From: Candidatus Methylobacter titanis
GTDB taxonomy: Bacteria; Pseudomonadota; Gammaproteobacteria; Methylococcales; Methylomonadaceae
Length of the DNA stretch: 64,000 bases
Assembly (NCBI GenBank): GCA_029946125.1
Contig: JAQSDX010000001.1
Location: forward strand, 1-64,000
Reading direction: 5' to 3'
Shown: one piece after another, positions 4,843 to 30,500 of the stretch
Numbering within the stretch: position 1 is the stretch's first letter
Layout: each line of letters starts with the position of its first letter
Made by a program: the position numbers and the translations under genes
Notes under the pieces: generated by a model
What the model was told of the DNA's origin: nothing
Database searches by the model: none
The model's input: only the letters and a program-made list of their open reading frames with translations

Positions 4843-4854
4843 GCATTAATCTCA

Positions 4855-13048: not shown

Positions 13049-14163
13049 TATTCATCACTCCCCAACCCCAGCCAATTGGCTTTGAGTGCAACAGCACCTT
13101 TGACAGCGATTTCTTGATCAGCGGTCAACTCGCCGCTAACGATCGACTGATCATCCTGTTTGCCGACTACGGTGATCGGGGTTACCAAAAATCCCTGCGG
13201 CTTACGGATAAAAATATAGGCTTTGCCTTCGTTCTGGGCAATGGCGGTATTGGGAATTTTAAACACGGCTTTGTCGCTGGATTGAATAATCCGGGTATTC
13301 AGCCGTTGTCCGGGACGCAATGGCGCATTCTCGTGTAGCGGTTCAAGCACTGCTCTGGCCACAATAGTCTGGTTGTCCGGATTAACACTCTGTCCCAACA
13401 AGGTGATTTTGGCGCTGGCGTTTGAGTTTTCAACAACAACCCGGTCACCGATTTTAATGCTGTCCATACGTTCCTGCGGAATGGCTATTTCCAGCCACAG
13501 CTGATCCAGATTGGCGATGCGGTATAACGGCGCCATCATATCGATCCGCGTGCCCGCGACGGCCAAACGCTCCATCACCACGCCGACTATCGGCGCACGG
13601 ACATTGAGCTGACGGGTGAGCCGATGGGTTTTGGCTAGATGCGTAATCTCACTGTCGGTCATGCCGGAAATTTCCAGCAATTGCTTGTGTTCATTCACTT
13701 CGGATACAAAGGAGTTATGTTGAATGCGGGTTTCCTGCCAACGCCGGTCGGCAATAACGCCCTCTTCCACCAGTTTTTTATCCCGCTGAAAAGTAGCCGA
13801 AGACAATTGCAGTGCGCTGACGGCTTTAAGATATTCCCGTTGTAGTGTCAGCAAATCAGGACTATTGAGCTGGGCTAACACCTGCCCCTTGACGACCTTA
13901 TCGCCTATCGCCACATTCATCTTATCGATAACGCCGAACTGCGATGCACTAACGATATATTCCTGCGTCGGCGGAACCACCACTTTAGCCGGGGCGGATA
14001 ACACCGGGATTTGTTTAACCTGCTCCGGTTTGCCGAGTATTACCCCAAGGTTGGCAATATTTTCCGGTGAAATCTGGATGCTGTTTTCAGCCAAAACCGG
14101 TGGGCAGGCCAACATGACCCAGCCGACAAAATTCAATATCAGTACACATTTATAGTTTTTCAT
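13048..14163 (-). CDS. RND efflux periplasmic adaptor (CzcB/CusB type)
   Basis: Membrane-fusion protein linking the RND pump to the outer-membrane channel. The 371 residues start with a signal-like helix (LILNFVGWVMLACPPVLA). A barrel-sandwich half motif (GVIDKMNVAIGDKVVKGQVLAQLNSPDL, about 95-122, quoted here in outline), an alpha-helical hairpin, the second lipoyl half (VRAPIVGVVMERLAVAGTRI) and a beta-barrel follow. It lacks a large His-rich N-terminal extension, so metal choice is not evident. Its start overlaps the upstream TolC-like gene by 4 bases. Confidence 0.9.
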   Translation of the reverse strand: MKNYKCVLILNFVGWVMLACPPVLAENSIQISPENIANLGVILGKPEQVKQIPVLSAPAKVVVPPTQEYIVSASQFGVIDKMNVAIGDKVVKGQVLAQLNSPDLLTLQREYLKAVSALQLSSATFQRDKKLVEEGVIADRRWQETRIQHNSFVSEVNEHKQLLEISGMTDSEITHLAKTHRLTRQLNVRAPIVGVVMERLAVAGTRIDMMAPLYRIANLDQLWLEIAIPQERMDSIKIGDRVVVENSNASAKITLLGQSVNPDNQTIVARAVLEPLHENAPLRPGQRLNTRIIQSSDKAVFKIPNTAIAQNEGKAYIFIRKPQGFLVTPITVVGKQDDQSIVSGELTADQEIAVKGAVALKANWLGLGSDE

Positions 14164-15434: not shown

Positions 15435-15520
15435 AGGTCAGACTCGATGCGGTTTTATGCCCGCGTTACAAATAAACAATAAGGAAATAAGGTAAGTTCT
15501 GCTTGCAATGACAGGCACCA

Positions 15521-16120
15521 TTACAGTAAACCTAAAATCCGATAAGAGCCTTTGGTGTTCAAGATGATGGCCACCGGAGACCGGGTTTTGTTTTCCCAGT
15601 ACCAGCCGTGAGGGCCTTCGAAGGGAGCCGTCAAGGTACCGGTGGATTGATTATCGGTACTCTCCTTAAAGCTTTTGAAGTAACCGGTTTTGTCACCTTT
15701 GGGTTCGCCATGAAAATCAAAATAGAGTTTGGCGCCGTCCGTAGCCCATGAATAATCCAGTGTCGCACCTTTTACCAGATGGAATTTATATTCCAAACCT
15801 TCCCCGGCCGGCACTATGATTTTGACTGAATCTTGCCACTGCGGCAGTTGTTCCTTTTGGATCGTCTCAGTCGAACTGGCCGCTTGCTTAATGGTTTGCG
15901 GCGGCAACACCGGACAAGTAATCGCGAGTGCTTTATTGCCGTCTTTTGTTGGTACAGATAAAGCGGTTAAGCCCATCATTTTTCCCATTCCGGTTGGGTC
16001 AATGCCGTATTCTGCGGGCAGTACCGCCGACAGTAAAATAATGACGGCCAATAGCAGCGCAAAAGCGCTGGCTATGATCAGTGATTTGAGCGATTGAACA
16101 GGGGGATTGATGTGAGTCAT
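15521..16120 (-). CDS. membrane-anchored periplasmic protein of the efflux locus
   Basis: A 199-residue protein with a single N-terminal helix (about 13-35, SLIIASAFALLLAVIILLSA) and a soluble domain predicted to face the periplasm. The aromatic run GPHGWYWENK near the C-terminus is notable. It resembles the transmembrane-anchor proteins often coded between HupE/UreJ genes and CzcCBA-like pumps; I cannot assign a reaction. It starts 4 bases after the HupE-like gene ends and lies 86 bases before the TolC-like gene, so it is probably in the same transcript. Confidence 0.7.
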   Translation of the reverse strand: MTHINPPVQSLKSLIIASAFALLLAVIILLSAVLPAEYGIDPTGMGKMMGLTALSVPTKDGNKALAITCPVLPPQTIKQAASSTETIQKEQLPQWQDSVKIIVPAGEGLEYKFHLVKGATLDYSWATDGAKLYFDFHGEPKGDKTGYFKSFKESTDNQSTGTLTAPFEGPHGWYWENKTRSPVAIILNTKGSYRILGLL

Positions 16121-16124
16121 GAAT

Positions 16125-16829
16125 TTATCCGTTAATTAAATAGCCGGTTATTTGATAGCCGAACAGAATCAAGCCGCCGGTCATTAAAAGTGTATTGGTA
16201 GCCGTGGAAAAGCGATAAAAACTCTCGTGTCTGCGCCAGAAATCGAGTGCAATCAAGATAAACAGCAAGGCGACAAACTGGCCTAGCTCCACCCCGACAT
16301 TGAAGGCCAATAAATTTTTCCATAACTCCGCTTGAGGCAGTGAAAAATCCTGCAATTTGGTGGCGAGTCCAAAACCGTGAAACAAGCCGAAAACCATCAC
16401 CGCGATTTTGGTGTTCGGTTGAAAGCCGAATAATCGGCGAAAACCGCCCAGGTTATCGAAGCCTTTGTAGACAATGGACAGCCCGATAATCGCATCAATC
16501 AGGAAAGGATTGACTGCCATGTTGTTTAGCACGCCGAATAATAGCGTCAGACTATGCCCCAAGGTGAACAGGCTGACATAAATCAATACATCCCGGGTGC
16601 GGAACAGAAAGAAAATCACGCCAATCAGAAACAGCAGGTGATCGTATCCGGTCACCATGTGTTTGGCGCCGATATAAAGAAACGGCCCGATGGCGAGACC
16701 CTGGTTTGCCAATAAAAAGCGTTCGGTATTCGCGTCAACGCCATGCGCAAAGACACTTGGGCTTATTAGGAGAAGTAAAAACAACGGCACGCTAATAAGC
16801 CGGGCCAGTCGTAGTATTGGGAATGTCAT
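16125..16829 (-). CDS. HupE/UreJ-family membrane protein
   Basis: Polytopic membrane protein of the HupE/UreJ group, whose studied members carry nickel or cobalt. From the ATG at 16829 the product is 234 residues, with a cleavable signal (VPLFLLLLISPSVFA followed by HG). The family motif HMVTGYDHLLFLIGV is near 60 and LGHSLTLL follows, with about six helices in all. This start is preferred because AGGA lies upstream and the signal peptide is complete; an ATG at 16862 would add 11 residues. Its place at the head of an RND efflux operon suggests Ni, Co or a related ion, an inference. Confidence 0.85.
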   Translation of the reverse strand: MTFPILRLARLISVPLFLLLLISPSVFAHGVDANTERFLLANQGLAIGPFLYIGAKHMVTGYDHLLFLIGVIFFLFRTRDVLIYVSLFTLGHSLTLLFGVLNNMAVNPFLIDAIIGLSIVYKGFDNLGGFRRLFGFQPNTKIAVMVFGLFHGFGLATKLQDFSLPQAELWKNLLAFNVGVELGQFVALLFILIALDFWRRHESFYRFSTATNTLLMTGGLILFGYQITGYLING

Positions 16830-16894
16830 CGTTAAAAAATCCTGCTTCAATTTATGTGTCATTTAAGGCTACCAATTTAAGCCGGGGCAAGTTC

Positions 16895-16936
16895 GGAGTA
16901 CAGGCTTCGCCTGTTTGCAAGCGAAGCTTGCACTCC
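16895..16936. repeat. double-hairpin repeat between efflux genes
   Basis: Outer arms GGAGT/ACTCC enclose two small palindromes, ACAGGCTTCGCCTGT and GCAAGCGAAGCTTGC. This compact nested design is typical of dispersed REP-like elements. It lies upstream of the HupE-like gene and downstream of the DUF3147 gene. Confidence 0.6.
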
Positions 16937-16980
16937 TAACTAACACTGCACCGTCTTAAGCTGGTAGCCTCATTGAGTAT

Positions 16981-17340
16981 TTATAGCTTAATGCCATAGC
17001 GCGTCAATAGTGTGATCATTAGAAAATAACAGCCTGCGGTCACTGACATTGAAATCCCCATGCTGAGATAAAAATCAAGCCCCTTCTTGAGCAAAAAAGG
17101 TAAGCTGATAAAAAAAACCAGCGAGGGGATAACCAGCCAAAAAATACTGGCGGCCAAATTGGCAACTTTTCCGGTATCTTTGGTGTCAATATAAAGCCAG
17201 AACATCGCTAAAACGGATATGAGCGGCAGCGAGGCCAATAAAGCGCCAAGCAATGAGCTTCGTTTCGACAGTTCCGATATAGCCACGATAAGCAGGCTGG
17301 TAATAATAACTTTGATTAGGGTGTAGCTCATTTGTGCCAC
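16981..17340 (-). CDS. DUF3147 family membrane protein
   Basis: A 119-residue protein with four hydrophobic helices (about 6-25, 28-50, 62-85 and 90-113). Pattern and size fit the DUF3147 family, whose function is unknown. The segment SKRSSLLGALLASLPLIS between the first two helices is characteristic. It sits between the HupE-like gene and the His-rich secreted protein on the same strand, which hints at a link to the metal locus. Confidence 0.75.
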   Translation of the reverse strand: MAQMSYTLIKVIITSLLIVAISELSKRSSLLGALLASLPLISVLAMFWLYIDTKDTGKVANLAASIFWLVIPSLVFFISLPFLLKKGLDFYLSMGISMSVTAGCYFLMITLLTRYGIKL

Positions 17341-17530
17341 CGTTATTTTACTCCCGTCTTGCTTTGAAAATGTACAGCTTTGAAACGGCTGAAGACCTTG
17401 TTAATCAAGGGCTGGCCAGTTTTACAAAAACAGACGATTTGTCACTAAGATTAGGAGCGTATTCAATGCGGTTTTAACCGCGTTAATGTAAAGACGCGAT
17501 ACATCACGTTTCTACGAAACGAAGGAGGAC

Positions 17531-17938
17531 TTATTGAGCAGGAGGCGCGCGAGGGGATAACGAGGGAATAAGCAACCGGCAAACAAACTGCGTGGCTTGC
17601 GGAGAAAAATTGGTATCGAAAGGGGAGATTGCGGCGTTAAATGCTGGAGCCTGTTGCGGCAGATAGTAACTGTTATCCGTCGCAACAGCAGCATTAACTT
17701 GTTTATCTTTCATTCCGGCAGCGACACCCACTATGATGCCTTCGGAACTGAAATCATGACTCACTGCCTGAAATGCATGATCGTCATGGTCGTCATGGTC
17801 GTCACTATGCATTTCAAGACCGTGAATATGCAGGCCAAAGCCTGGCACTTTTTCTCCGGCATGCGCATGCACCAGCGGTGCAATGAATTGCAGTATCGCC
17901 AGAAAAATAACGGTAAATTTGCGTAATGTTGTCAACAT
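17531..17938 (-). CDS. small secreted His/Asp-rich protein of the metal locus
   Basis: A 135-residue protein with a signal peptide (FTVIFLAILQFIAPLVHAHA). It has an acidic, histidine-rich stretch near residues 38-55 (HGLEMHSDDHDDHDDHAF) well suited to binding divalent metal. It resembles the short CzcI-like proteins found next to Czc-type pumps, though I see no certain family signature. The C-terminus is Pro/Ser-rich (SLSPRAPPAQ). Placed upstream of the efflux genes on the same strand, it could act as a periplasmic metal buffer or sensor; this is inference. Confidence 0.6.
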   Translation of the reverse strand: MLTTLRKFTVIFLAILQFIAPLVHAHAGEKVPGFGLHIHGLEMHSDDHDDHDDHAFQAVSHDFSSEGIIVGVAAGMKDKQVNAAVATDNSYYLPQQAPAFNAAISPFDTNFSPQATQFVCRLLIPSLSPRAPPAQ

Positions 17939-17980
17939 GGCGCCAATGCTAAGCGATTAACCCGCAATTAACAACTTGTT

Positions 17981-18007
17981 GTTTGCGCTAAGAGGCATAG
18001 CGCAAAC
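17981..18007. repeat. perfect hairpin upstream of the His-rich gene
   Basis: GTTTGCGCTA and its exact complement TAGCGCAAAC are separated by seven bases. The repeat lies 43 bases ahead of the His/Asp-rich protein's start and about 100 bases past the DUF475 stop. It could be an operator for the metal locus or a transcription end for the DUF475 gene; no U-tract decides between them. Confidence 0.45.
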
Positions 18008-18058
18008 AAACGAGCTCTGTATTTGGCACCGCTGGAGCGATGCAGGATGCAGGATGCA

Positions 18059-18080
18059 TTCCCGCGCCGGAGCGTGGGAA
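18059..18080. repeat. small REP-like palindrome
   Basis: TTCCCGCGC, a 4-base loop CGGA and GCGTGGGAA form a stem with one mismatch, just past the DUF475 gene. The right half (CCGGAGCGTGGGAACGATAC) recurs at 22569-22588, at the end of the ATP-grasp gene. Confidence 0.6.
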
Positions 18081-18109
18081 CGATACGCGAACAGCCACGA
18101 ACCGCTGCA

Positions 18110-19114
18110 TCAAGCATGCAGTTTTTTGTAACGGATCGATGACAGCACCGATAAGCCGATCAATATCGCACCCGACAAGCCGGTAATGATTTCGGAAATA
18201 TGATGGGTGATGCTGAGCAGCATAATGCCCGCCAACACCCCTATCGCATAATGCGCGCCGTGTTCCAGAAACACATATTCATCCAGCGTACCTTTGCGCA
18301 CCAGATAAACCGTCAGACTTCTTACAAACATCGCGCCGATCGCCAAGCCCAGCATAATGATGACCACATCCTGGGTAATCGCAAACGCACCGATCACACC
18401 ATCGAATGAAAATGACGCATCCAAGACTTCAAGGTAAATAAAGCTCATTATGCCGCTTTTTTTAAGCACTGCCGAAACCTGTTCGCCTTCTTCTTCATCC
18501 TCAAACAAGGCCGCCAGACTGTCGACGATAACGAATAAGATAACCCCGGTAACACCGGCGATCATAACATCCAGACGGATTTCCTCGGGCAGATAGTTTT
18601 GAATGATTAACAGCGGCGCTAAGGCCATGATAATTTCAATGGCTTCAAGCTTGCCGAATGAAGCCATTTTCTTTTCTATGTAGCCGAGCCAATGCAGCTC
18701 CCTGGCCTCGTCAAAAATAAACGAATAAAACACCATCAGCAGGAACATGCCGCCAAATGCCGCAATTTGCACATGCGATTCTTCCAAATGTTTGGCATAG
18801 GTCGCGGTATCGTTTAAGGCCATGTCGGTGACGCCCATAAATCCGATGCCGGTGGCCGCTGCCACAATCACGATAGGAAACAACAGGCGCATACCGAAAA
18901 CGGCCACCAAAATCCCCCAGGTTAAGAAGTACTGCTGCCAGCGGTCATCCATACGTTTTAGAATGGAGGCATTAACCACCGCATTATCAAATGACAAACT
19001 GACTTCGAGTACTCCCAGAATAACGGCGATAAAAACGCCCATTATTCCACCCCAATAAAATGCGGCCGCCAGGCAAATCGCAGTGACAATAAAAGAAAGT
19101 CGAAAATGTTGCAT
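18110..19114 (-). CDS. DUF475 (TerC-like) integral membrane protein
   Basis: A polytopic membrane protein of the DUF475 family, related to the TerC group in the LysE superfamily. From the ATG at 19114 it has 334 residues and about nine helices. The segment GVLEVSLSFDNAVVNA near residue 30 and its second copy LEVLDASFSFDGVIGAFA are the acidic intramembrane motifs of TerC-like transporters. A TTG start 13 codons earlier is possible but weaker. It is divergent from the ter genes, where TerC usually belongs, and probably supplies the membrane part of the Ter system, perhaps metal efflux. Confidence 0.88.
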   Translation of the reverse strand: MQHFRLSFIVTAICLAAAFYWGGIMGVFIAVILGVLEVSLSFDNAVVNASILKRMDDRWQQYFLTWGILVAVFGMRLLFPIVIVAAATGIGFMGVTDMALNDTATYAKHLEESHVQIAAFGGMFLLMVFYSFIFDEARELHWLGYIEKKMASFGKLEAIEIIMALAPLLIIQNYLPEEIRLDVMIAGVTGVILFVIVDSLAALFEDEEEGEQVSAVLKKSGIMSFIYLEVLDASFSFDGVIGAFAITQDVVIIMLGLAIGAMFVRSLTVYLVRKGTLDEYVFLEHGAHYAIGVLAGIMLLSITHHISEIITGLSGAILIGLSVLSSIRYKKLHA

Positions 19115-19596
19115 AGTGTACTCGCTAAAGATTGATGATTTTTTGTTGACCAACTATAGGTGGATTTGATTTAAAATCAACATTTATCCGGAGAGGAGCG
19201 ACACTCTACTGCCCGTAAATTGCACCGGAATTTTTTTAACAACTCAATGTCGAAGCCTATTACAAGTCCACTAAATGAATAACCGATGTTATGCAGTCTC
19301 TGACGCGCCTATCCGTCAGCGGCGATCTCACCCGCCTTCATGCAGTCGAATACAGAGACGATAAATACGCTTTCCTCGAATACATGGCTGACTAGGCAAG
19401 TGGTTTATTAGCGGTTATCATGGCAAGGGCACACGTCGAATTATTCTGAAAGTGTGGATTGATCAATCGGTGTACTACGTAATGAATCAGCAGTCTTTTA
19501 CTATTTTTTTTGCCGGACTCATGAAACAAATAGCGTTAAAAGACTTTTGATAACTTGTCTATTTAGACTTTGCACTCTATACAAGGAGATTTATTG
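19115..19596. other. divergent control region between the DUF475 gene and terD
   Basis: About 480 bases that should hold the promoters of both the DUF475 gene and the ter operon. A 34-codon open frame at 19291-19395 on the plus strand (MQSLTRLSVSGDLTRLHAV onward, ending LEYMAD) looks like gene debris. A small inverted repeat, gattgatcaatc, lies at about 19458-19469. No sigma-70 promoter is clear enough to call. Confidence 0.4.
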
Positions 19597-20172
19597 ATGG
19601 CTATTTCGCTCACTAAAGGCGGCAATATCAGTCTGTCCAAGACTGATCCGACCCTTAAAAACCTGATTGTCGGTCTCGGCTGGGATGCAAGACCCACTGA
19701 CGGCGCAGATTTCGATTTGGATGCCAGTGCATTTCTGGTCAAAGAAGACGGTAAAGTCAGATCCGACAGCGACTTTATTTTCTACAACCAGACTAAATCC
19801 ACTTGCGGTTCGATTGAGCATACCGGCGATAACCGTACCGGTGAAGGCGACGGCGACGATGAATCCGTTATCGTGCTGCTCGACAAAATCCCGGCCGATA
19901 TACAACGCGTGGTTTTTACCGTGACCATACACGATGCCGAATTGCGCAAACAGAATTTCGGTCAAGTTTCGAAAGCCTATGTTCGGGTCGTTAATAAAGA
20001 CTCAAGCAGCGAAGTCGCCCGCTATGACTTAAGCGAAGACGCCTCCATTGAAACCGCGATGGTTTTCGGTGAACTCTACAAACACGGCGCCGAATGGAAA
20101 TTCAAAGCCGTCGGTCAGGGATATGCAGGCGGGTTGGCCGCATTAGCTCGTCAATACGGTATTAGTATCTAG
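19597..20172 (+). CDS. terD: TerD family stress protein, first copy (TerD type)
   Basis: TerD-domain protein, a calcium-binding beta-sandwich of the tellurium-resistance and general stress system. The 191 residues carry the conserved VGLGWDAR (27-34), [10 protein letters not shown] and the acidic metal-binding loop [13 protein letters not shown]. Sequence and length match Escherichia coli TerD throughout. The ATG at 19597 is chosen because AAGGAG sits 8 bases ahead; the open frame extends 9 codons further upstream without such a site. It is the first gene of the ter operon and faces the DUF475 gene. Confidence 0.95.
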
Positions 20173-20287
20173 TACTTTCGTTAGCCGACCTCTATAGCGT
20201 CACTCGACGGATAGAGGTCGGATGTGGATTGAAACATTAGCCGCTACGCGGTTTTAATATATCTTAACTAAGCATCAGGAGAGAATC

Positions 20288-20863
20288 ATGGCAGTATCAC
20301 TTACCAAAGGCGGCAATGTTAATCTGAGTAAAGAAGCCCCGGGCTTGAATAAAATCGTCGTGGGACTAGGCTGGGATGCCCGTGCAACCGACGGCGCAGC
20401 GTTTGATTTAGATGCCTGCGCTTTTCTGGTCAAAATGGACGGCAAAGTTCGCTCCGACAGCGATTTTTGTTTTTACAATAACAAGGTGGTCGGCGATGGC
20501 TCGGTTCAGCATCAGGGTGACAATACCACCGGTGCCGGCGATGGCGATGATGAAACCGTCAAGGTTGAATTATCCAAAGTTCCCGGCGAACTGGACAAAA
20601 TCGTATTCTCGGTGACCATTCATGACGCTGAAACGCGTAAACAGAATTTCGGTCAAGTCAGTCATGCCTATATCCGTATCTGCAACGAAGAAGGCGGCGC
20701 AGAAATCGCCCGTTATGATTTGAGCGAAGACGCATCAATCGAAACTGCGATGATTTTTGGCGAAATCTACCGCGTCGGTACCGATTGGAAATTTAAAGCT
20801 ATTGGCCAAGGTTTTGCCGGTGGACTAGGGCCTTTAGCCGCGTCTTTCGGGGTTAATGTTTAA
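20288..20863 (+). CDS. terE: TerD family stress protein, second copy (TerE type)
   Basis: A second 191-residue TerD-domain protein, closer to Escherichia coli TerE (start [18 protein letters not shown] and end [14 protein letters not shown]). The calcium loop [13 protein letters not shown] and the GLGWDAR and [10 protein letters not shown] segments are intact. A strong AGGAGA ribosome-binding site precedes the ATG. The 115 bases after terD contain an imperfect inverted repeat, gacctctat near 20189 against atagaggtc near 20212, that could trim or partly end the transcript. Confidence 0.93.
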
Positions 20864-20956
20864 ACCGCCGCTACGATTGTTTATTTTGAAATTTCAAATC
20901 ATCAAAAATCCTGCTGCCATTTAACACAGCAGGGTTCATTTATTGAGGTAATGTGT

Positions 20957-21550
20957 ATGGCTATTAATTTACAAAAAGGGCAGAAAATTTCTTTGTCCAA
21001 AGAGTCCGGCGGTGCGTTAAGCAAGATTGTCATGGGGTTGGGCTGGGATGCTAAAAAAGTCCCTGTCAGCATGTTAAAAGGCATGTTCGGCGGCGGTAAG
21101 AGCGATGCTATCGATCTGGACGCTTCTTGCGTATTGTTTGACGATCAAAACAAGGTGGTTGACACCATTTATTTCGGCCAACTGAAAAGCCGTGACGGCA
21201 GCATTGTGCATACCGGCGATAATCGTACCGGCGCCGGTGATGGCGATGATGAACAAATCAAAGTCGACCTGGATAAAGTGCCTGCCAATGTTAAATCGCT
21301 GGTATTCACCGTTAACTCCTTTTCCGGCCAGACTTTTGATGAAGTTGACAATGCGTATTGCCGTATCATCGACAGCAGCAATAATGCCGAAATTGCCCGT
21401 TATACACTGAGCTCTCAAGGTTCCCATACCGCACAAATCATGACGAAACTATATCGGCATAATGGCGAGTGGAAAATGCATGCGATCGGTGAAAATGGCA
21501 CTGGCCGCACCATTGAAGCCTTGTTGCCGCAAATTATCATTCATTTGTAG
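20957..21550 (+). CDS. terZ: TerD family stress protein, third copy (TerZ type)
   Basis: A 197-residue TerD-domain protein that differs from the first two by a Gly/Lys-rich insertion after GLGWDAKK (SMLKGMFGGGKSD), as in TerZ. It also has IDLDASCVLFD, the loop [13 protein letters not shown] and the TerZ-like FTVNSFSGQTFDEVDNAYC. The ATG at 20957 follows GAGGTA by 6 bases; an ATG two codons earlier is less well placed. It ends 6 bases before the ATP-grasp gene, tying the Ter proteins to the enzyme genes in one operon. Confidence 0.92.
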   Translation: MAINLQKGQKISLSKESGGALSKIVMGLGWDAKKVPVSMLKGMFGGGKSDAIDLDASCVLFDDQNKVVDTIYFGQLKSRDGSIVHTGDNRTGAGDGDDEQIKVDLDKVPANVKSLVFTVNSFSGQTFDEVDNAYCRIIDSSNNAEIARYTLSSQGSHTAQIMTKLYRHNGEWKMHAIGENGTGRTIEALLPQIIIHL

Positions 21551-21556
21551 GCATCA

Positions 21557-22591
21557 ATGAGAATTTGGTTTAACCAAACATTTTCGACCATACACGCCGT
21601 ATTTAGAAATCTTCGCCAGTCGGCACCGAACGGCGAAATCACCCTGATTTGCACTCACACCCAAGCTCATGCCACTGCTTTTTTGGCAGCGGATGAGCAC
21701 TATGTTGAACCTGCCGAACTCACTGAACACGAGTATCTTGAATGGTGCGTGGATTTTTGTCGGCGGCACAATATTCAGTTATTTTGGCCCGGAAAAGAAG
21801 CTGCGCTGATCAGTAAACACCCTGAATTATTTCAGGCGATTGGTGTGCAGGTAGTGTCGGTTGCCGATTTTGATACGTTGAGCTTATTGCATAACAAGGC
21901 GGATTTTTATGCCGCGTTGCCTGCAGTGGTTGCGCAAACCATGGACTTTATCGCCGTTAACGACCGTGATGCGTTTGATAGCGCGGTTGCCGCATTATCG
22001 GCACATCACCAAAGATTATGCGTTAAACCGGCGGTTTCGGTGTTCGGCCTGGGCTTTCGGGTTTTGGATACCCAGCGCGACAGCATCACCCAGCTACTTA
22101 AAGGCGTTGAATACCAGATTCCGCTGCAAGAATTGCGGCATGGCATGGCTAACACTCCGGAGTTTGCCACCCTGCTGGTCATGGAACATCTGGGCGGCCC
22201 TGAATGGAGTGTCGATTGCGCCGGACGGCACGGCGAATTGCTGTGTGCGGTGCAACGCAAAAAATCGCAACTGGCGGGCGGCGGGCAAACCATCGATAAC
22301 AACGCCGATATTGACGGCATGGTGGCAAGACTAACCGCGCATTACCGACTCAACGGCTTGTTCAATATCCAGTTCAAGGAAGGCGTACACGGTGTGCGTT
22401 TACTGGAAATCAACCCGCGTCCTTCGGGCGGTTTCGGCATGGCCTGCTTATCCGGCGCCAATCTGGCGCAGATTGCGTTGCAGGCTATCAAAGGTAAAGC
22501 ATGCCAGCCTCCGAGCATTCGTTATGGGCTAAGGGTGAGCGAAATTAATACGCCGGTGGTGATGATGCCGGAGCGTGGGAACGATACCTAA
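21557..22591 (+). CDS. ATP-grasp enzyme of the Ter-linked pathway
   Basis: A 344-residue protein of the ATP-grasp type found in ter operons. The N-terminal third is a pre-ATP-grasp fold (residues about 1-100). The ATP-grasp core shows the metal-binding end motif LLEINPRPSGGFG near 290, and lysines upstream for ATP. It probably ligates a carboxylate to an amine in making a small metabolite; the substrate is unknown. Its last seven residues (PERGNDT) come from a repeat sequence also present at 18068-18087. The gene begins 6 bases after terZ. Confidence 0.88.
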   Translation: MRIWFNQTFSTIHAVFRNLRQSAPNGEITLICTHTQAHATAFLAADEHYVEPAELTEHEYLEWCVDFCRRHNIQLFWPGKEAALISKHPELFQAIGVQVVSVADFDTLSLLHNKADFYAALPAVVAQTMDFIAVNDRDAFDSAVAALSAHHQRLCVKPAVSVFGLGFRVLDTQRDSITQLLKGVEYQIPLQELRHGMANTPEFATLLVMEHLGGPEWSVDCAGRHGELLCAVQRKKSQLAGGGQTIDNNADIDGMVARLTAHYRLNGLFNIQFKEGVHGVRLLEINPRPSGGFGMACLSGANLAQIALQAIKGKACQPPSIRYGLRVSEINTPVVMMPERGNDT

Positions 22592-22621
22592 AATTTATAA
22601 AATAACTCCACAAAACAAACC

Positions 22622-23824
22622 ATGCCAAAAACAGTCACCATAAAACTAGACACCGGAACCCTGCATCTCGACATCGAACCCGGACGCATTCCGCTGAATC
22701 GCTTGCTGGGATTTGCGGCCAGGGTGAGCAGCAAGCGCAAGTTTTTGCTGGTCAGCAAGGTCTTGGGCAAGCATTATCCGGTATCGCCCAAAGTCATGAG
22801 CTGGTCTTATCGGGCCCTGGCCCGGATGGTATTAAATAGCGGAGCAGACACCGGTTCGCTATGGATAGGCATGGCGGAAACCGCAACCGGCTTGGGTTAT
22901 GGCGTATTTGAGGCGGCCTGCCGTGAAGGTGCAGAGCAGGCCCTGTTTATCCAGACGACCCGCTATCACCTGGACGGCATCGAACGGCTGGAATTTGAAG
23001 AGGCGCACAGTCATGCGACCGACTTTTTTTTGTATTATCCTGAGCGGACAGATCTTCGTCAGCAGTTTTTAACGGCCAAAACGCTGGTGTTAATCGATGA
23101 TGAAATCAGTACCGGACTTACCTTTTTACGCCTGATCAAAGCCTACAAAGAAGTTAATCCCGGCCTGCAAAAAGTATTCATCGTCAGTTTAGTCAATTTT
23201 GCCCATCCAGACGATCGAGCCGCGTTGGAAGATCAAGCCGGTGTAGCGGTCGAATGGCTGTGTTTCAGGCAGGGTTTATTGCGCTTTGAGGACGGCCAAA
23301 ACGCGGCTATTGACCGTATCAGCGTCAATGTATCGGGTAATGGCGACTGTAAAAAATCGCTGCTGGCCTGGCCGGGTCGCTTAGGTTTGGATGCGCAGAT
23401 CAACCTGGAAAAGGATGTGCTCGAGCAGCTGTGCAGCAATGGCTTTAGCCGCGATCAGGCAAGCGACTCACGCCCGATTCTGGTCTTAGGCACAGGCGAA
23501 TGCAACGCCCCCGCTTATCTATTGGGCCGCGAATTGGAAAACCGGGGTTTTAAGGTCAAGGTGCAAAGCACCACGCGCTCGCCGATTCATCAAGGCAACG
23601 CTATCGGTTCGGTATGCCAATTTGAAGACAACTACGAGGACGGCATCCCCAATTTTATTTATAACCTGAATCCGGATGATTATCGGGACATTATTCTTTG
23701 CCATGAAACTCCGCTGTGTGCAGCATTAAATGGCCGACTGCACGCATGGCAAGCCATTAGCGCAAGATTTGAACTCCAACCAGGCAACACTAACCATGCA
23801 AAGCTACATTTTTTTAGACCTTGA
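22622..23824 (+). CDS. phosphoribosyltransferase with TRSP domain
   Basis: A 400-residue protein with an N-terminal PRTase_2 domain and a C-terminal TRSP domain, a pair known almost only from ter operons. The PRPP loop is TLVLIDDEISTGLTFL (about 155-172). The TRSP signature appears as STTRSP near residue 317, followed by an HQGNAIGS stretch. It likely joins a base-like group to phosphoribose or cleaves such a bond. It starts 30 bases after the ATP-grasp gene and overlaps the next gene by 29 bases. Confidence 0.9.
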   Translation: MPKTVTIKLDTGTLHLDIEPGRIPLNRLLGFAARVSSKRKFLLVSKVLGKHYPVSPKVMSWSYRALARMVLNSGADTGSLWIGMAETATGLGYGVFEAACREGAEQALFIQTTRYHLDGIERLEFEEAHSHATDFFLYYPERTDLRQQFLTAKTLVLIDDEISTGLTFLRLIKAYKEVNPGLQKVFIVSLVNFAHPDDRAALEDQAGVAVEWLCFRQGLLRFEDGQNAAIDRISVNVSGNGDCKKSLLAWPGRLGLDAQINLEKDVLEQLCSNGFSRDQASDSRPILVLGTGECNAPAYLLGRELENRGFKVKVQSTTRSPIHQGNAIGSVCQFEDNYEDGIPNFIYNLNPDDYRDIILCHETPLCAALNGRLHAWQAISARFELQPGNTNHAKLHFFRP

Positions 23825-24560
23825 TGACACCTTATTCCAGACCTTAAGAAAATGCGCACCCGATGTCGATAATCATCCGCTACAGGCGCGGGCTTTTTTA
23901 CCTGACGGTTCGGCTAATTCCTACGCGACACCAAAACAGCAGTGGTTGTGGCATTGGCTGGCCAAGGGCTTTAAGATCGTGCCGGTCACGGCACGCGATG
24001 TTCACGCCTTTGAGCGCGTCAACCTGCCGTTTCAGGAAGAAGTGGTATTGAACCACGGCGCAGTGATTTTGAATAAACAGGGTACTGTCGATCAGGTGTG
24101 GATGGATAACATCATGCAAAGCTTACCGGCTTACCAGGAAAAGCTATTGGCGGTGTGGGCGGAAGTTGAGCTTTATGCACAACGACATGGCGGTTTTAAA
24201 CCACGGCTGGTTAACGATTTCGGTACAACCTGGTATGGCGTCATCAAACACAGTGACGGCACCGAAGCGATATTAAAAACCCTGTTGGATGAGATTATCA
24301 TCACGCATCCGTATGTGCTTGACGGCAGTTTGTATTGGCATTTGAACGGCAACAACCTGGCGTTATTACCGAAGATCATCAACAAAGAAAGCGCAGTCAG
24401 TTATCTGCTGGAAGGCTACAAACAGCAGCATTCCAAAGTATTGACCTTTGGTGCGGGCGACAGCAAAACCGACGCAGCGTTTATAGCGCTGTGCGATTAC
24501 GCGTTAATTCCCAAGAATACCCAGCTGTTTCAAGCGCTGGATTTTGCCGAAACCACATAA
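23796..24560 (+). CDS. HAD-family hydrolase of the Ter-linked pathway
   Basis: A 254-residue haloacid-dehalogenase-type phosphatase. Motif I is FLDLDDTLFQT (the two Asp near residues 7 and 9) and motif IV is GAGDSKTDAAFI near 228. The middle has a small cap region. It probably removes phosphate from the pathway's sugar-phosphate product. The ATG at 23796 is chosen because the protein then begins directly at the first strand of the fold; it lies inside the end of the PRTase gene (29-base overlap). Its stop directly abuts the next ATG. Confidence 0.88.
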   Translation: MQSYIFLDLDDTLFQTLRKCAPDVDNHPLQARAFLPDGSANSYATPKQQWLWHWLAKGFKIVPVTARDVHAFERVNLPFQEEVVLNHGAVILNKQGTVDQVWMDNIMQSLPAYQEKLLAVWAEVELYAQRHGGFKPRLVNDFGTTWYGVIKHSDGTEAILKTLLDEIIITHPYVLDGSLYWHLNGNNLALLPKIINKESAVSYLLEGYKQQHSKVLTFGAGDSKTDAAFIALCDYALIPKNTQLFQALDFAETT

Positions 24561-25646
24561 ATGACGATTCCTTTCACCGGCAGTTACACTGCAGACGATG
24601 TACGGTTTTTATTAAAACCGATGGCGATGGAGAACACGCCCATCGCTATCAAGGAAGCCTTAATCCAATCCGGCAAACAACATTACTCCCAAATGCTGAC
24701 CCATGAGTCGTTGCCGCCGGAACATTATTTACCGCTGTTTTATCAGGCGATGGCCTTAAATCAGCAGCGTATGGCCGAGCATGTGCTGCTATTGGCCGAA
24801 CGCATAGTCGCCACCCGTCGACACGGCGTTACCCTGGTTTCTCTGGCGCGTGCCGGAACGCCGGTCGGCGTGCTGCTTAAGCATGTACTTCAGCGCTATT
24901 TCGATACCGAGGCTAGCCATTATTCCATTTCGATACTGCGCGATATCGGCATAGACCAAAATGCCCTGCGCTTTATTGTACAAAACCATGCCCCGGAATC
25001 GTTGGTTTTTGTCGATGGCTGGACCGGAAAAGGCGTTATTGCGCGGCAGTTGGCCGCCAGCCTACAGGCTTTTGCCGCAAGCGATGGCGTGACTATTCCG
25101 GCCGAACTGTATGTGTTGGCCGACTTATCAGGCAATGCTACGGTTGCCGCAACGTCCGAAGATTATTTGATTCCCTCGTGCATCCTGAATGCGACGGTAT
25201 CGGGTCTGGTCAGTCGTTCAATTTACGCCCCTGATACGGCGGGCCCAACCGATTTTCATGGTTGCGTTTATTACCGGCAATTTGAGCCGCACGATCTGTC
25301 CCGTTATTTTATTGACACGATGCTGACTTGCATTGAACAGGCGTGGCAACAGGGCAATCTTGTCAGCTGCAGTCATGACCGGCTAAAATTGCAAGCGATT
25401 TCCCAAGCGCTATTGGCCTGGATTACAACGCATTACGGTGTCAAGCAGCACCATTACATTAAGCCCGGTATCGGTGAGGCGACGCGGGTTTTATTACGAC
25501 GCGAAGCCAAGGTCTTGCTGTTACAGCATGAAGATTGCGCCGCGACCCGACATTTGCGTTGGCTGGCCGAGTCCCGATCCATTCCAATCGCTATTTTTCC
25601 CGACCTGCCGTACCAAGCAGTAGCATTAATCAAGGAGTTGCCATGA
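24561..25646 (+). CDS. StiP/PRTase_1 family protein
   Basis: A 361-residue protein of the family named StiP cysteine protease in databases, also described as PRTase_1, a phosphoribosyltransferase of ter operons. The sequence shows a PRTase-like loop, SLVFVDGWTGKGVIARQL near 152-168, and the segment VSLARAGTPVGVLLKH near 93-108. The PRTase reading is better supported by these motifs and the neighbours than the protease name. It starts at the base after the HAD stop and overlaps the next gene by 4 bases (ATGA). Confidence 0.88.
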   Translation: MTIPFTGSYTADDVRFLLKPMAMENTPIAIKEALIQSGKQHYSQMLTHESLPPEHYLPLFYQAMALNQQRMAEHVLLLAERIVATRRHGVTLVSLARAGTPVGVLLKHVLQRYFDTEASHYSISILRDIGIDQNALRFIVQNHAPESLVFVDGWTGKGVIARQLAASLQAFAASDGVTIPAELYVLADLSGNATVAATSEDYLIPSCILNATVSGLVSRSIYAPDTAGPTDFHGCVYYRQFEPHDLSRYFIDTMLTCIEQAWQQGNLVSCSHDRLKLQAISQALLAWITTHYGVKQHHYIKPGIGEATRVLLRREAKVLLLQHEDCAATRHLRWLAESRSIPIAIFPDLPYQAVALIKELP

Positions 25647-26581
25647 TGAATAATGTACCGAAAGTTTTTTCGCCTTGGTGTTTAGGTGCGTCACTGTATA
25701 TGCCCGCGCATCGTCTCGACCTGATGGATTGCGCCAATGGCGAAAAACTGTCAACCTTGCGTTCGATGATTTTTTGTACCGAAGATGCGGTATCCCATAC
25801 CGAGCTAGACAGCAGTCTGCGTCATTTAGGCCTTTGCTTGCAGGGCTTTAGAGACACGCCGCAGCGCCTCCGTTTTATTCGCGCCAGAAACCCTGAGGTT
25901 CTGGCGCGACTGCTGGCGCTGCCCGATATTGAAAAAATCGACGGCTTTGTGTTGCCGAAATTTAATGCCGGCAATTTTCACGCTTATTTCGATCAACTGC
26001 AGGGCACTCCCTTCAAGGTTATGCCGACACTAGAAACCCAGGATGTTTTTGATGTCGGCGCGATGACTGAACTACGTCAGGGCTTGGCTCAGGATACTGT
26101 TTTTGCGCGGATATTGATGCTGCGGATCGGCGGCAACGACTTGATGAATATTTTAGGTATCAGACGCCCCAGAAATATGACCTTGTATCAGACGCCCCTG
26201 GGCCATGTCATCGCACAGCTGGTGACCGTATTTAAGCCTTACGGGTTTTCATTGTCAGCGCCGGTATTCGAATATCTGAATGACAGCATCACCTTACAAA
26301 AAGAGATTCGGCTGGATCTGGCGCATGGTTTGACCGGTAAAACGGCTATTCATCCGACTCAGGTACCGGTCATTGAAGCCATGTACAGCGTCGATAGCGA
26401 AGACTATGACATGGCGCTTAGCTTGAATCAAAGCGCGTCACCTGCGGTATTCAGAATGCACAACGCGATGTGCGAAGTGGCGACGCACAAACAATGGGGG
26501 CAGGATATTATCGATAGACAGCAGTGCTACGGCGACCGGGTAGCGCTCGCCTTGCCGGAATATACCGGGGTGATTGTTTAA
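25643..26581 (+). CDS. CitE-like carbon-carbon lyase of the Ter-linked pathway
   Basis: A 312-residue TIM-barrel protein of the HpcH/HpaI-CitE superfamily, the C-C-bond lyase type of ter operons. Seen motifs are VLPKFNAGNFHAYF, MPTLETQDVF (Glu for metal), LMLRIGGNDLMNILGI and the closing AIHPTQVPVIEAMY, typical of CitE-like lyases. It may cleave or form a bond to a short acid, giving the pathway's side chain. AAGGAG lies ahead of the ATG at 25643, which overlaps the StiP stop. A second ATG follows directly. Confidence 0.9.
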   Translation: MMNNVPKVFSPWCLGASLYMPAHRLDLMDCANGEKLSTLRSMIFCTEDAVSHTELDSSLRHLGLCLQGFRDTPQRLRFIRARNPEVLARLLALPDIEKIDGFVLPKFNAGNFHAYFDQLQGTPFKVMPTLETQDVFDVGAMTELRQGLAQDTVFARILMLRIGGNDLMNILGIRRPRNMTLYQTPLGHVIAQLVTVFKPYGFSLSAPVFEYLNDSITLQKEIRLDLAHGLTGKTAIHPTQVPVIEAMYSVDSEDYDMALSLNQSASPAVFRMHNAMCEVATHKQWGQDIIDRQQCYGDRVALALPEYTGVIV

Positions 26582-26712
26582 ATCATTAGCGCTAACCCGA
26601 CCTACATGGCTGGAAAAGATTAATGGTAAACTCCAGGTTACCAAACTGGTCGATTATTTTTCCGGGCAGCAACTTAAAACCACAACAACACCCTTAACAT
26701 CAGGAGAGCACC

Positions 26713-27165
26713 ATGAGTTTCGATAGTTTTCTAAGTCAATTAAAAAGCAAAGCCAGTGAGTTAAAAACAGAGGCGTTAAAATACAAGAACAAGGATTTTT
26801 TGAATGCCGCGATGGCGGGTTCCGCATTGGTCGCGATGGCCGATGGCAGCGTGAGCTCGGAAGAAAAGCAAAAAATGATCAAGTTTATCGAAAGCCATGA
26901 TGCGCTGTCGATTTTCACCACCAGCGATGTGATCAAGGCTTTTCAGGATTTCGTCGGTCAGCTTGAATTCGATAAGGATATTGGTGAAGCCAAAGCTTAT
27001 GAAGCCTTAGGCAAGATGAAGTCCAACGCCCAAGCCTCGCGCCTGTTGGTACGCATGATTATCGGCATTGCCTCTTCGGATGGGGATTTTGATCACGCTG
27101 AAAAAAAGGTAGCGATTAAAATAGCCCAGGAACTGGGGATTGATCCTGCGGAATTTGAATTGTAA
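26713..27165 (+). CDS. terB: TerB family tellurite-resistance protein
   Basis: A 150-residue all-helical TerB protein that associates with the membrane through TerC in studied systems and may bind metal. Conserved stretches are MADGSVSSEEKQKMIKFI and SSDGDFDHAEKKVAIKIAQELG, two copies of the acidic TerB repeat. Length and order match Escherichia coli TerB. AGGAG lies 6 bases ahead of the start. A gap of 131 bases separates it from the CitE-like gene, so it may have its own promoter; a hairpin follows at 27195. Confidence 0.92.
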   Translation: MSFDSFLSQLKSKASELKTEALKYKNKDFLNAAMAGSALVAMADGSVSSEEKQKMIKFIESHDALSIFTTSDVIKAFQDFVGQLEFDKDIGEAKAYEALGKMKSNAQASRLLVRMIIGIASSDGDFDHAEKKVAIKIAQELGIDPAEFEL

Positions 27166-27194
27166 TCGGTTAACAAGCGGGGATTGAACGCTTT

Positions 27195-27220
27195 AATAAG
27201 CGTCCGCTCGGTCGCTTATT
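27195..27220 (+). terminator. hairpin after terB
   Basis: AATAAGCG and its exact complement CGCTTATT surround a 10-base loop, 30 bases past the terB stop. It is a likely end of the ter operon, although only a short AT run follows instead of a full U-tract. Confidence 0.45.
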
Positions 27221-27354
27221 ATTGCAACTCCGGTAATAATTTAGAATTAACATTTCGATAAAAATGATATTCTCTCGCGACTATTCAAAGCGCTTTGTCG
27301 CTGAGCAATGTGTAGACAAGCTTAATCGGCTAAAACTTACGCGGTAAACAGTGC

Positions 27355-27424
27355 GTAGGATGTGCTGAGGTACGAAGCGCATCTTTCGCGAAAGATGCTC
27401 TTCACGTTGTTCAGCACATCCTAC
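27355..27424. repeat. long nested REP-like palindrome
   Basis: Outer arms GTAGGATGTGCTGA (27355-27368) and the exact complement (27411-27424) enclose a second, perfect 20-base palindrome at 27379-27398 (GCATCTTTCGCGAAAGATGC). The GTAGGAT arms and nested form match dispersed REP elements of gammaproteobacteria. As RNA the whole would fold into a long branched hairpin. Confidence 0.75.
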
Positions 27425-27549
27425 GTACTTACGCTGTAAACGGTCAATATTCAAAGCTGTTTTACCGTGTATTTAATTTAAAACGACTGATTATAATAAT
27501 CTGAACAGCACTATACCGAAATGCTAGAATCACCCACTTTCACCCCCTG

Positions 27550-30500
27550 ATGCTTATGCCTTTTTTCCGCCTGATTACTTTATTGTGTCTGGCACTGAGT
27601 TCATCTCCCTTATTGGCCGAGCCCACACCAGCTGCCGAACAAGTCTCTTTACAGCTCAAGTGGTTGCATTCTTTCCAGTTCGCCGGCTACTACGCGGCCA
27701 AGGAAAAAGGTTTTTACGCCGAACAAAATCTGGATGTCACTATCCATGAGCGCATTCCCAAAATCAGTAACATTGAGCAGGTTCTAAAGAATGAATCTCA
27801 ATACGGCGTAGCCGATACCAGCCTATTGGAACAGCGGCTGATCGGCAAACCGGTAGTGATTTTGGCCTCTATTTTCCAGCACAACCCGCTGGTTTATCTT
27901 ACCTTGAAAAAATCCGGCATCGTCAGCCCCTACGAGCTTAAGGGTAAACGCGTCATGGAGGACAGTTTTGACAATGCGCCACTACGAGCCATGCTGTATG
28001 AAACCGGCATTTCTGCCGATGAATTTACCCATTTGGATAATTCCTTCAATCCCGACGACCTGATCACCGGCAAAACCGATGCACTGATTGGCTATCTGAC
28101 CGATCAGGTCGATTACTTCAAACAGAAGGGTATCGAAATCAACATCATCGATCCACGCAACTACGGCGTAGATTTCTTGGGCGACAATCTGTTTACCACG
28201 GAACAGGAAATAAAGCAGCATCCGGACAGAGCTCAGCGCTTCCTGCGCGCCTCGCTCAAAGGCTGGAATTATGCGCTCCATCATCAGGATGAACTGATCC
28301 AGATCATCCTGAGCAAATACAACGCCAATAACCGACTTTCCGCCGAGCACTTGCGTTTTGAGGCAGAAGCAACGGTAAAGATGATTTTACCGGAGACTAT
28401 CCCCATCGGTCACACCGACATCAAGCGTTTTCAACGCATTGCCGATACTTATCGGCAACTGGGCCTGATCCGTTCAATTGATCATCTGGATGGCTTTATT
28501 TACCAACGGATAAAGCCAAACAAGCTTTATTTCACCCCGGCTGAACAGGCTTGGTTACAAGCGCATCCGGTTATTCGCGTCGGCATAGACCGCGATTTTG
28601 CGCCTTACGAATGGCTAGACGCCAAAGGTGATTATGTCGGCCTGAGTGCCGACTATATTGCTTTGGTCGAGCAACGGCTAGGCGTGAAACTTGAGATTGT
28701 GAAAGATAAATCCTGGGCTGAAATCATTGCCATGGCGCAACGCGGCGAGCTGGATATGATCGCCAACGTCAATAAAACGCCCAAACGCGAGCGTTATTTA
28801 ATTTTTACCGAAGCCTATCTACAGACCCCTACCATCATTATCAGCGATAATAATAACGGGTTTATCGGTACGCTGGATCGTCTTGAAGGCAAGCGGGTGG
28901 CGTTGGAAAAAGGCTACTTCATGCAAGAACGGTTAAAACACGATCATCCTAATATACACCTGATTCCCGCAGAAAATGTACACGAGGCATTGTCCCTGGT
29001 CGGCAGCGGCAAGGCGAATGCCTATGTTGGCGACGCCGCTTCGGCCAACTACGCGGTTAAAAGAGACGGCATGCTTAATCTCAGCTTTTCCGGTGATACC
29101 GGTTACAAAAACTGGCACCGAATGGCCGCTACCAAGAGTAATCCTGAACTAATAACCCTACTTGACAAAGCGCTGGCCGACATTCCCTTGTCTGAAAGGG
29201 AAACCATACAGAATCGCTGGATGAGTTTGACCTATGAACCTGGTTTCAAAACCGAAACACTGCTGCTTTATGCGGCGGCGGCTTTATTGCTACTGCTTAT
29301 GATTGTCGGCTGGAATATGCGATTACGACGTGAAATCAGTAAACAAAAACAGGTTGAAGAAGCGCAACGTATGGCTGCCAGCGTTTTTTCCAGTATTCAG
29401 GAAGGCATTATGATTACCGATGCCCGGCGTACTATTATCGATTTGAATCCGGCATTCACCCGCATAACGGGCTATTCGCGGGACGAGGTGCTGGGTAAAA
29501 CGCCAAGCCTGCTCAAATCCGGACTGCACGACGATCGCTACTATGAGGCGATGTGGCAAGCCATCAACCGGCAAGGCTACTGGCGCGGCGAGGTTTGGAA
29601 CCGTAAGAAAGGCGGCGAAATATTCGCAGAAATGCTGACCATTTCTGCGGTTACCGACAAGCAAGGTAAGATAACGCATTACATAGGCACCTCTTCAGAT
29701 ATTTCCGCGCTTAAAGAACAAGCGCGGAAACTGGAGCTTGTTGCTCATTATGACCCGCTGACCGGCGTGCCGAACCGGATTCTATTAGCGGACCGCATGC
29801 ATCTGGCGCTTGCCCAAACCAAACGTGATAATTGCTTAATGGCGGTCGGTTATCTTGACCTGGACGGCTTTAAACCGGTTAACGATACACTGGGGCATGA
29901 AGCGGGCGACCAGCTGCTGATCGAAGTTGCCCGGCGCATTAAAAATGCCCTGCGCGAGGGCGATACCGTTGCCCGTTTAGGCGGCGATGAGTTTGTATTT
30001 TTGTTGCTGGGACTGGAAAAGGTTGAAGATTGCGAGATCACTTTACATCGCCTGCTACAAGTCATTAGTGAGCCTGTTGCGATAGGCAGCCAGACCGTCT
30101 CAGTATCTGCCAGTATTGGTATCAGTATTTTTCCGGGAGACTGCACCGATGCAGTAGCGTCTACCGAAGATAACACCGACCCGGATACGCTGTTACGACA
30201 TGCCGATCAGGCCATGTACAAGGCCAAACTGGAAGGAAAAAATTGCTTTCATATCTATAACCTGGAGTTGGATCGTCAACTTCATGCGCATCGCGAAGCA
30301 CTAAACCGCATTGAACAGGCATTTGAAAACGAAGAATTCGAACTTTTTTTCCAACCCAAAGTCGATATGCAGCAGGGTATCGTGTTTGGTGCAGAAGCCT
30401 TGATACGCTGGCGGCATCCTGAACGCGGTCTGGTCATGCCGGGTGATTTTCTGCCGCTGCTTGAAAATCACATTATTGCAATCAAACTCGATGCCTGGGT

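Follow-up and report, generated by a model that had tools for sequence, protein, structure and literature searches.

A well-preserved Ter locus of Candidatus Methylobacter titanis, with a suggested three-enzyme core and a recurrent insertion slot in related methanotrophs

The Ter systems of Anantharaman, Iyer and Aravind (2012), known here through citing papers, have a predicted nucleoside-like product. In its accessible text, a 2021 account of the Klebsiella ter locus also presents a putative biosynthetic cluster with a nucleoside-like product that is predicted only (PMC8115787), and the Ter system of the Acinetobacter phage ME3 has already been reported (PMC7824862, available part). The same domain set is found in a ten-gene locus within 64,000 nucleotides of Candidatus Methylobacter titanis (positions 1 to 64,000 of contig JAQSDX010000001.1, assembly GCA_029946125.1; hereafter the window). 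The genome (G000; G labels denote genomes and L labels loci) comprises 3.5 Mb in 146 contigs; of the named entries in the genome collection, Methylobacter and other Methylococcaceae come closest to it, with a StiP that is 81% identical in M. tundripaludum SV96 (L034). The locus is a sound, ordinary-looking and well-preserved example of a known unsolved system, and what emerges at the level of the families, concerning the name of StiP, the core and add-on enzymes and a slot for candidate defence genes, outweighs the window itself. A literature search, with most subscription papers outside its reach, retrieved neither an isolated product nor any description of the insertion slot, consistent on the first point with the initial annotation, which knew of no isolation of the product.

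All ten genes occur in the order given by that annotation and score above their Pfam cut-offs: a DUF475/TerC-like gene, terD, terE, terZ, an ATP-grasp ligase, a phosphoribosyltransferase (PRTase) with a TRSP domain (PRTase_2), a HAD phosphatase, StiP, a CitE-like C-C bond lyase and terB. The Pfam matches uphold both the Ter assignment and the five enzyme families. TerD-domain genes adjoin PRTase_2-TRSP, StiP and the Ter-type ATP-grasp, and the spacings proposed between successive genes from terZ to the lyase are exact (6, 30, -29, 0 and -4 bases), so that the tight coupling of the enzymes to terZ stands; the distance from lyase to terB is 131 bases. The description of the locus as a five-enzyme pathway fares less evenly. 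The five families are indeed present, but two of them, the lyase and the ATP-grasp, are missing from some genomes, leaving a PRTase_2-HAD-StiP core.

This division comes from a survey of 251 genomes sampled from the order Methylococcales, 84 of which have StiP. PRTase_2 scores above cut-off in 85 genomes and accompanies StiP in 84 of 84, the lone PRTase_2 genome without StiP being an 80% complete draft. TerD, found in 110 of the 251, is likewise present wherever StiP is (84/84). The C-C lyase (E below 1e-45) occurs in 80 genomes, among them 78 of the 84 with StiP, and the Ter-type ATP-grasp (E below 1e-28) in 70, all of them StiP genomes and 69 also with the lyase. The distribution suggests that PRTase_2-HAD-StiP forms an irreducible core to which lyase and ATP-grasp are add-ons, and the chief new limit on what the pathway can be comes from this nesting of core, then lyase, then ATP-grasp. 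StiP genomes without the lyase are G098, G114, G229 and G230, all of genus g3, together with G162 and, at a contig end, G238. In these four g3 genomes (L114-L117) the operon reads DUF475-TerD-TerD-PRTase_2-HAD-StiP-TerB, and searches of the whole genomes gave only weak background matches to lyase and ATP-grasp; other g3 genomes are without StiP. Phage ME3 is a second core-only case. In L122 (G227, 3550-4944) no more than some 53 N-terminal residues of the ATP-grasp are left, sharing one open frame with PRTase_2, and the other genes are kept. This loss may be a natural deletion or a draft-assembly artefact, misassembly being possible because G227 is a draft, 87% complete. The core-only and ATP-grasp-deleted versions are usable as natural controls, and the problem is narrowed to three genes and a predicted product dependent on phosphoribosyl pyrophosphate (PRPP). 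As a separate observation, the StiP match in a Methylobacter draft genome (L047, 165-1042) is split in two pieces.

Broken operons bear on the same division. StiP stretches were examined from every StiP genome except that of the window (83, L114-L196), with ends at contig edges kept apart from real splits. HAD lies upstream of StiP in 69 of the 83, a contig edge intervenes in two, and 12 have no HAD there despite room. Among these 12, genomes such as G225, G148, G118, G124 and G130 carry PRTase_2-HAD elsewhere (L213, L206, L200, L201, L205), accompanied by TerD and ATP-grasp save in G118, whose contig starts just before. In G112 and G222 HAD-StiP stands apart, and PRTase_2, lyase and TerB remain together (L166, L174, L198, L199). 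The retention of parts without linkage argues for a shared function.

Ratios of nonsynonymous to synonymous substitution rates (dN/dS) are 0.07-0.19 for nine genes against L130 (91-98% protein identity), 0.05-0.24 for nine genes against L122, where the 52-codon ATP-grasp fragment gives 0.31, and 0.05-0.15 for eight genes against L153, in which one gene is saturated and DUF475 lies outside the stretch. TerB was not found in L130, whose stretch stops 188 bases past the lyase. By this measure the genes that can be compared with relatives are real and under purifying selection. Because the same order recurs in relatives and plasmids, and because dN/dS is 0.05-0.24, the locus is not a product of chance. 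In the cultured relative M. tundripaludum SV96 (L034) the series runs TerD, TerZ, ATP-grasp, PRTase_2, HAD, StiP, lyase, TerB.

StiP is a cysteine protease according to its Pfam description (PF11202) and its RefSeq name in 24 of the 25 plasmid entries listed. The initial annotation treated it instead as a PRTase-fold protein, and it is this view that PRTase fold matches and the want of an invariant cysteine favor. The AlphaFold model (54 sequences) has a mean predicted local distance difference test score (pLDDT) of 95.5, and the PDB chains matched at E<=0.001 are PRTases of the HPRT/GPRT type in 22 of 27 cases and pyridoxal phosphate (PLP) enzymes, at lower probability (0.44-0.72), in five; no protease is among them. 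An invariant cysteine, as expected of a cysteine protease, was not found among 135 distinct StiP sequences: the best candidate is C235, conserved as Cys in 124 but replaced by Ala in 10 and by Thr in one, and the 11 loci without Cys keep PRTase_2 and HAD in 11 of 11 cases and the lyase in 10. StiP is thus probably, on its modeled fold, an HPRT-like PRTase-fold protein and not a protease, and its name needs correction; relatives are present on 2,568 plasmid records, more than 2,000 of them from Enterobacterales. The structure-based search that had been proposed, as run on the PRTase_2 and StiP models, returned PRTase folds for both. The best matches of PRTase_2 (pLDDT 92.7) are APRT/XPRT, and this predicted fold combined with an acidic PRPP loop would place it in the type I PRTase superfamily. 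The standard type I PRPP loop has two acidic residues followed by TGxT. The StiP loop, D152-G153-W154-T155-G156-K157-G158, is atypical, although each position is at least 95% conserved, and StiP may bind PRPP without textbook nucleobase transfer.

Conserved family residues, counted over distinct sequences from the fetched loci, are present in all five window enzymes, in keeping with the earlier remark that the motifs are intact. Those kept in at least 99% of sequences are K114, K157, E284, N286 and R288 of the ATP-grasp (n=88), D159, D160, E161, T164, G165 and T167 of PRTase_2 (n=120), D8, D10, K197, D222 and D226 of HAD (n=138; T12 in 95-99%), R80, E131 and D166 of the lyase (n=126) and R97, D152, G153, W154, K157 and G158 of StiP (n=135; T155 and G156 in 95-99%). 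We take these to be the catalytic positions of their families. The CitE/HpcH lyase superfamily is marked by a conserved Arg and a Glu/Asp metal site, which R80, E131 and D166 fit; the PDB relatives of the lyase are CLYBL and CitE.

In related methanotrophs an insertion slot recurs between the ATP-grasp and PRTase_2 genes. Once 13 loci duplicating already sampled genomes had been removed, 48 loci of the order, the window excluded, had both genes adjacent on one contig, and 15 of these 48 junctions exceed 600 bases. Elsewhere in the operon that length is exceeded at 0/70 PRTase_2/HAD, 0/74 StiP/lyase, 0/47 TerD/ATP-grasp and 0/46 lyase/TerB junctions, 3/69 HAD/StiP and 4/98 TerD/TerD. Outside the order 3 of 31 junctions are as long, all with trypsin-like peptidase genes (L092, L093, L106). 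Candidate defence modules, co-directional with the operon, occupy 9 of the 48. Seven slots contain HEC-01 ATPase genes as defined by PADLOC (L124 with two pairs, L142, L198, L185, L131, L170 and L134), beside a HEC-01B partner in all except L198. The slot of L204 has an AAA_21 ATPase related to PtuA and a PIN-domain gene, whose protein matched no PADLOC model at 1e-15, and that of L205 a ParE-like toxin gene beside one for a protein that matches, over part of its length, the final 130 positions of PDC-S68. AIM24 is alone in four slots (L157, L168, L199, L161) and lies beside HEC-01 in L142 and L198; no recognised gene was found in those of L213 and L187.

The kind of cargo differs between near neighbours, which carry AAA-PIN (L204), S68/ParE (L205) or nothing (L201), and L134 and L131 have different HEC-01 subtypes, with ATPases 27% and PRTase_2 proteins 89% identical. 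On a tree of the joined ATP-grasp and PRTase_2 proteins (49 rows including the window, obtained by quick search, with long branches for L150 and L181), defence cargo changed at least six times and AIM24 about five. The latter count is approximate because L123 was scored without AIM24 although its junction holds an AIM24 match. That match, of 138 residues in a junction of 428 bases, is probably what is left of a gene that sister genomes have in full. A further protein, of 110-113 amino acids (L185, 6604-6936), recurs in the ATP-grasp/PRTase_2 junctions of L171, L176 and L178; the L185 copy had no Pfam match. HAD/StiP is a second, rarer insertion point (L134, 5861-8074; L120, 7147-10327), holding in the one case a metallo-beta-lactamase-fold gene and an unknown one, and in the other a methyltransferase together with genes of unknown kind.

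The contents of the slot give hints, from gene neighbourhood, of a role of the operon in defence against viruses. The HEC-01B profile PDLC04205 matches 29 times, in 25 of the 251 genomes, with six of the matches in the slot (G131, G032, G108, G150, G188 and G242, the last at a contig start beside AIM24 and PRTase_2), and PDLC04188 has 60 matches in 49 genomes, two of them in the slot (G028, G108). The 48 junctions total 31,567 bases of about 0.9 Gb searched, for which uniform placement would by estimate predict far fewer than one match, a figure to be read with the caveat that defence genes are unevenly placed and that the junction is long because cargo sits there. As a control, 569 non-overlapping open reading frames (ORFs) of at least 200 amino acids were pooled from the flanks, and 60 of them, picked at random below an upper cut of 700 amino acids, were compared with PADLOC at 1e-15. 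Of the 76 families matched, the 25 listed have one member each and are of four kinds: reverse transcriptase, type I restriction endonuclease, methyltransferase and Cmr4. Deletion of terC in Klebsiella lowers phage resistance, according to the accessible part of PMC12054061, and a word search of the available text of the DefensePredictor paper found no Ter terms. Because candidate defence modules repeatedly land inside the operon in relatives, phage phenotypes are first in line.

Two readings of different reach can be proposed. The broader, held with somewhat better than even confidence, is of a stress or antiphage Ter system based on a phosphoribosyl metabolite. The computation shows which genes are present and in what order, the selection on them, their predicted folds and intact family residues, the joint retention of the core and, in relatives, candidate defence cargo; the reactions, step order, product, sensing and output are inferred. 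PRTase_2, HAD and StiP would make from PRPP a nucleoside-like small molecule, phosphoribosylated first and dephosphorylated afterwards. As optional tailoring, the CitE-like lyase would supply or trim a carbon unit and the ATP-grasp ligase would then couple a carboxylate. TerD- and TerB-type proteins, together with the TerC-family DUF475 protein, would read the product at the membrane, and the system would thereby respond to a damaged envelope, to metals and to phage. The narrower reading is tentative and on balance rather doubtful. The enzyme operon would carry out antiphage small-molecule signalling, with StiP as an RNA-binding PRTase in a three-enzyme core that makes a phosphoribosyl-derived messenger, optional tailoring, and a junction at which swapped in-line defence modules dock.

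A number of observations weigh against these proposals. A strong ATP-grasp match is absent from 14 and the lyase from 6 of the 84 StiP genomes, some at contig ends. The Foldseek template modelling (TM) scores of StiP, normalised by query, are low (0.2-0.3), which is partly due to an alignment that covers only about half of the protein. Its D152-G-W-T-G-K-G, set beside D-D-E-I-S-T-G of PRTase_2, is an odd PRPP loop, and its chemistry may therefore not be standard phosphoribosyl transfer; a gap-free alignment sets D152-G153 against D159-D160 of PRTase_2, within a comparison that is itself non-significant, and close homology of the two proteins was rejected (hhalign probability 0.6%). On the side of defence, only 8 of 89 HEC-01 matches are in the slot, the majority of copies being elsewhere, and the slot of the window holds no defence module. 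At least about 4 of the 60 flank proteins match PADLOC, so that the surroundings of Ter loci may themselves be rich in defence genes. The window StiP, lyase and ATP-grasp matched no PADLOC model at E<=0.001, and the window PRTase_2 (22622-23821) has only a weak match (8e-5) to the retron type III-A PRTase models of PADLOC. An in-house PRTase_2 profile that matched 158 StiP ORFs at low score was not used as evidence; it is possibly contaminated, because up to 160 top hits built it and only 149 were labelled PRTase_2. The in-house ATP-grasp profile calls for the same caution, 65 of its 66 weak hits being PRTase_2 ORFs.

Other explanations divide the enzymes differently. The locus might confer ordinary tellurite or metal resistance, for which TerC and TerD would suffice, the enzymes being passengers. 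The terZ-F genes alone give E. coli MG1655 tellurite resistance (PMC8115787, accessible text), and StiP is absent from 26 of the 110 TerD genomes of the order. This is nevertheless unlikely, as the enzymes are co-retained under purifying selection, are kept in genomes with a broken-up operon, and have their core carried by a jumbo phage. A decidedly unlikely explanation is that the enzymes make no free small molecule but modify or tag an RNA during stress, to which the L7Ae-type domain of StiP brings the PRTases. A profile search finds the StiP C-terminus L7Ae-like (E 6e-4), with G303..E306..R309...R313 aligned to L7Ae G..E..K...R, a G-x-x-E-x-x-R/K-x-x-x-R stretch in which E306, R309 and R313 are invariant over the 135 sequences; a single-sequence PDB search gave, among 60 matches listed, almost only immunoglobulin noise and one RNase P p38, itself L7Ae-like. 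Against it, L7Ae folds also mediate protein contacts, a riboswitch search of 15000-29000 with Rfam came up empty at E<=1, no RNA partner is known, and HAD and lyase suit a small-molecule path better. Were StiP a cysteine protease after all, the operon would comprise one PRTase and a protease-based regulatory step. Its current name and the prevalence of C235 are in favor of this, but the Ala and Thr variants sit in loci that keep the partner enzymes, and the fold matches are to PRTases and not to proteases, so that it is very improbable. A phosphoribosyl-metabolite stress or antiphage system is the preferred reading.

The coordinates of the locus are collected in the table. The start of terD is the ATG at 19597, behind AAGGAG, and not the upstream TTG at 19570; that of DUF475, which is divergent to the operon, is TTG 19153 or ATG 19114. 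The terZ start is most likely at 20957, and the HAD and CitE-like starts are taken as 23796 and 25643. Promoter- and terminator-like sites (18 and 18, against 11.3, sd 3.9, and 11.0, sd 3.3, in shuffles) were left unused. In the surroundings, the stretch that separates terB from the gene after it contains a palindromic repeat (27330-27450). Counted by strand, BLAST matches it 22 times in the genome, at about 13 separate places, and it looks like an element of the repetitive extragenic palindrome or miniature inverted-repeat transposable element (REP/MITE) type. Directly behind the operon (27550-31098) is encoded a protein of 1182 amino acids that combines the binding domains NMT1 and SBP_bac_3 with PAS, GGDEF and EAL, and upstream of the locus, on the minus strand (14160-16862), are outer-membrane efflux (OEP) and HupE/UreJ_2 genes.

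Features of the Ter locus in the window
Feature	Coordinates	Strand	Evidence or remark
DUF475 protein, TerC-family membrane protein	18110..19153	-	Pfam DUF475 372 bits, TerC (PF03741) 69 bits
terD	19597..20172	+	PF02342 290 bits; profile match begins 19597
terD/terE paralogue	20288..20863	+	PF02342 276 bits
terZ-like TerD-domain gene	20957..21550	+	PF02342 195 bits
Ter-type ATP-grasp ligase (ATPgrasp_Ter), suggested add-on enzyme	21557..22591	+	PF15632 141 bits
ATP-grasp/PRTase_2 junction, 30 bases, empty in window	22592..22621	.	insertion slot in relatives
PRTase_2 with C-terminal TRSP domain, suggested core enzyme	22622..23824	+	PF15609 197 bits, PF12500 63 bits
HAD phosphatase, suggested core enzyme	23796..24560	+	PF08282 (Hydrolase_3) 27.7 bits, cut-off 20.9
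StiP, PRTase-fold domain (predicted) and C-terminal L7Ae/PELOTA domain, suggested core enzyme	24561..25646	+	PF11202 330 bits, PF15608 (PELOTA_1) 89 bits
CitE/HpcH-like C-C bond lyase, suggested add-on enzyme	25643..26581	+	PF15617 (C-C_Bond_Lyase) 314 bits
terB	26713..27165	+	PF05099 75 bits

The initial annotation called the locus complete and the full set, which is too strong, since canonical parts have no match in the genome and relatives carry extra genes (AIM24 and candidate defence modules) in the slot that is empty in the window. Neither TelA nor a TerF-like vWA protein has a match in the genome. Its three TerD-domain genes lie in open frames of 201-228 amino acids, and there is therefore no TerA, the TerA-like TerD-family gene on plasmid pEC5207 being of 385 amino acids. 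Judged by TerA and TerF-like vWA genes, the locus falls outside canonical terZABCDEF. The one TerC-family match in the genome is the DUF475 protein, a distant form of this membrane protein. A two-sequence BLASTP comparison of DUF475 with plasmid TerC gives only 25 bits, and a search with an in-house DUF475 profile recovers the plasmid protein at 7e-31; the two are, by these sequence comparisons, distant kin.

Among described systems, that of the jumbo phage vB_AbaM_ME3 shares DUF475, TerD, PRTase_2, HAD and StiP with the window, but ATP-grasp and a CitE-like gene were not found in its 19 kb stretch. The Polaromonas plasmid pPNAP04 is closer in layout, with DUF475, three TerD genes, ATP-grasp, PRTase, HAD, StiP and HpcH in order on one strand. 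It differs in that DUF475 is co-directional and in what comes after the cluster, a longer TerD-family gene and, on the other strand, kinase, PP2C, TerY-C and vWA genes; terB was not found in the stretch. The IncHI2 plasmid ter locus (pEC5207) has the enzymes divergent from a terZ...terD block, whereas the TerD genes and enzymes of the window are co-directional, and only the plasmid has DUF4236, TerW, vWA, TerD, vWA, TerY-C, PP2C and kinase genes behind the enzymes. It also carries canonical TerC and the TerD-family gene of TerA size, whereas the window has DUF475 in the place of TerC and is without TerA, TerF and the vWA/kinase block. Its ATP-grasp, PRTase, HAD-like, StiP and HpcH/CitE genes nonetheless stand in the same order as those of the window, with identities of 46% for the lyase, 39% for PRTase_2, 34% for HAD and 25% for the ATP-grasp, and because this five-enzyme order is shared, the locus of Candidatus Methylobacter titanis is of a kind already known.

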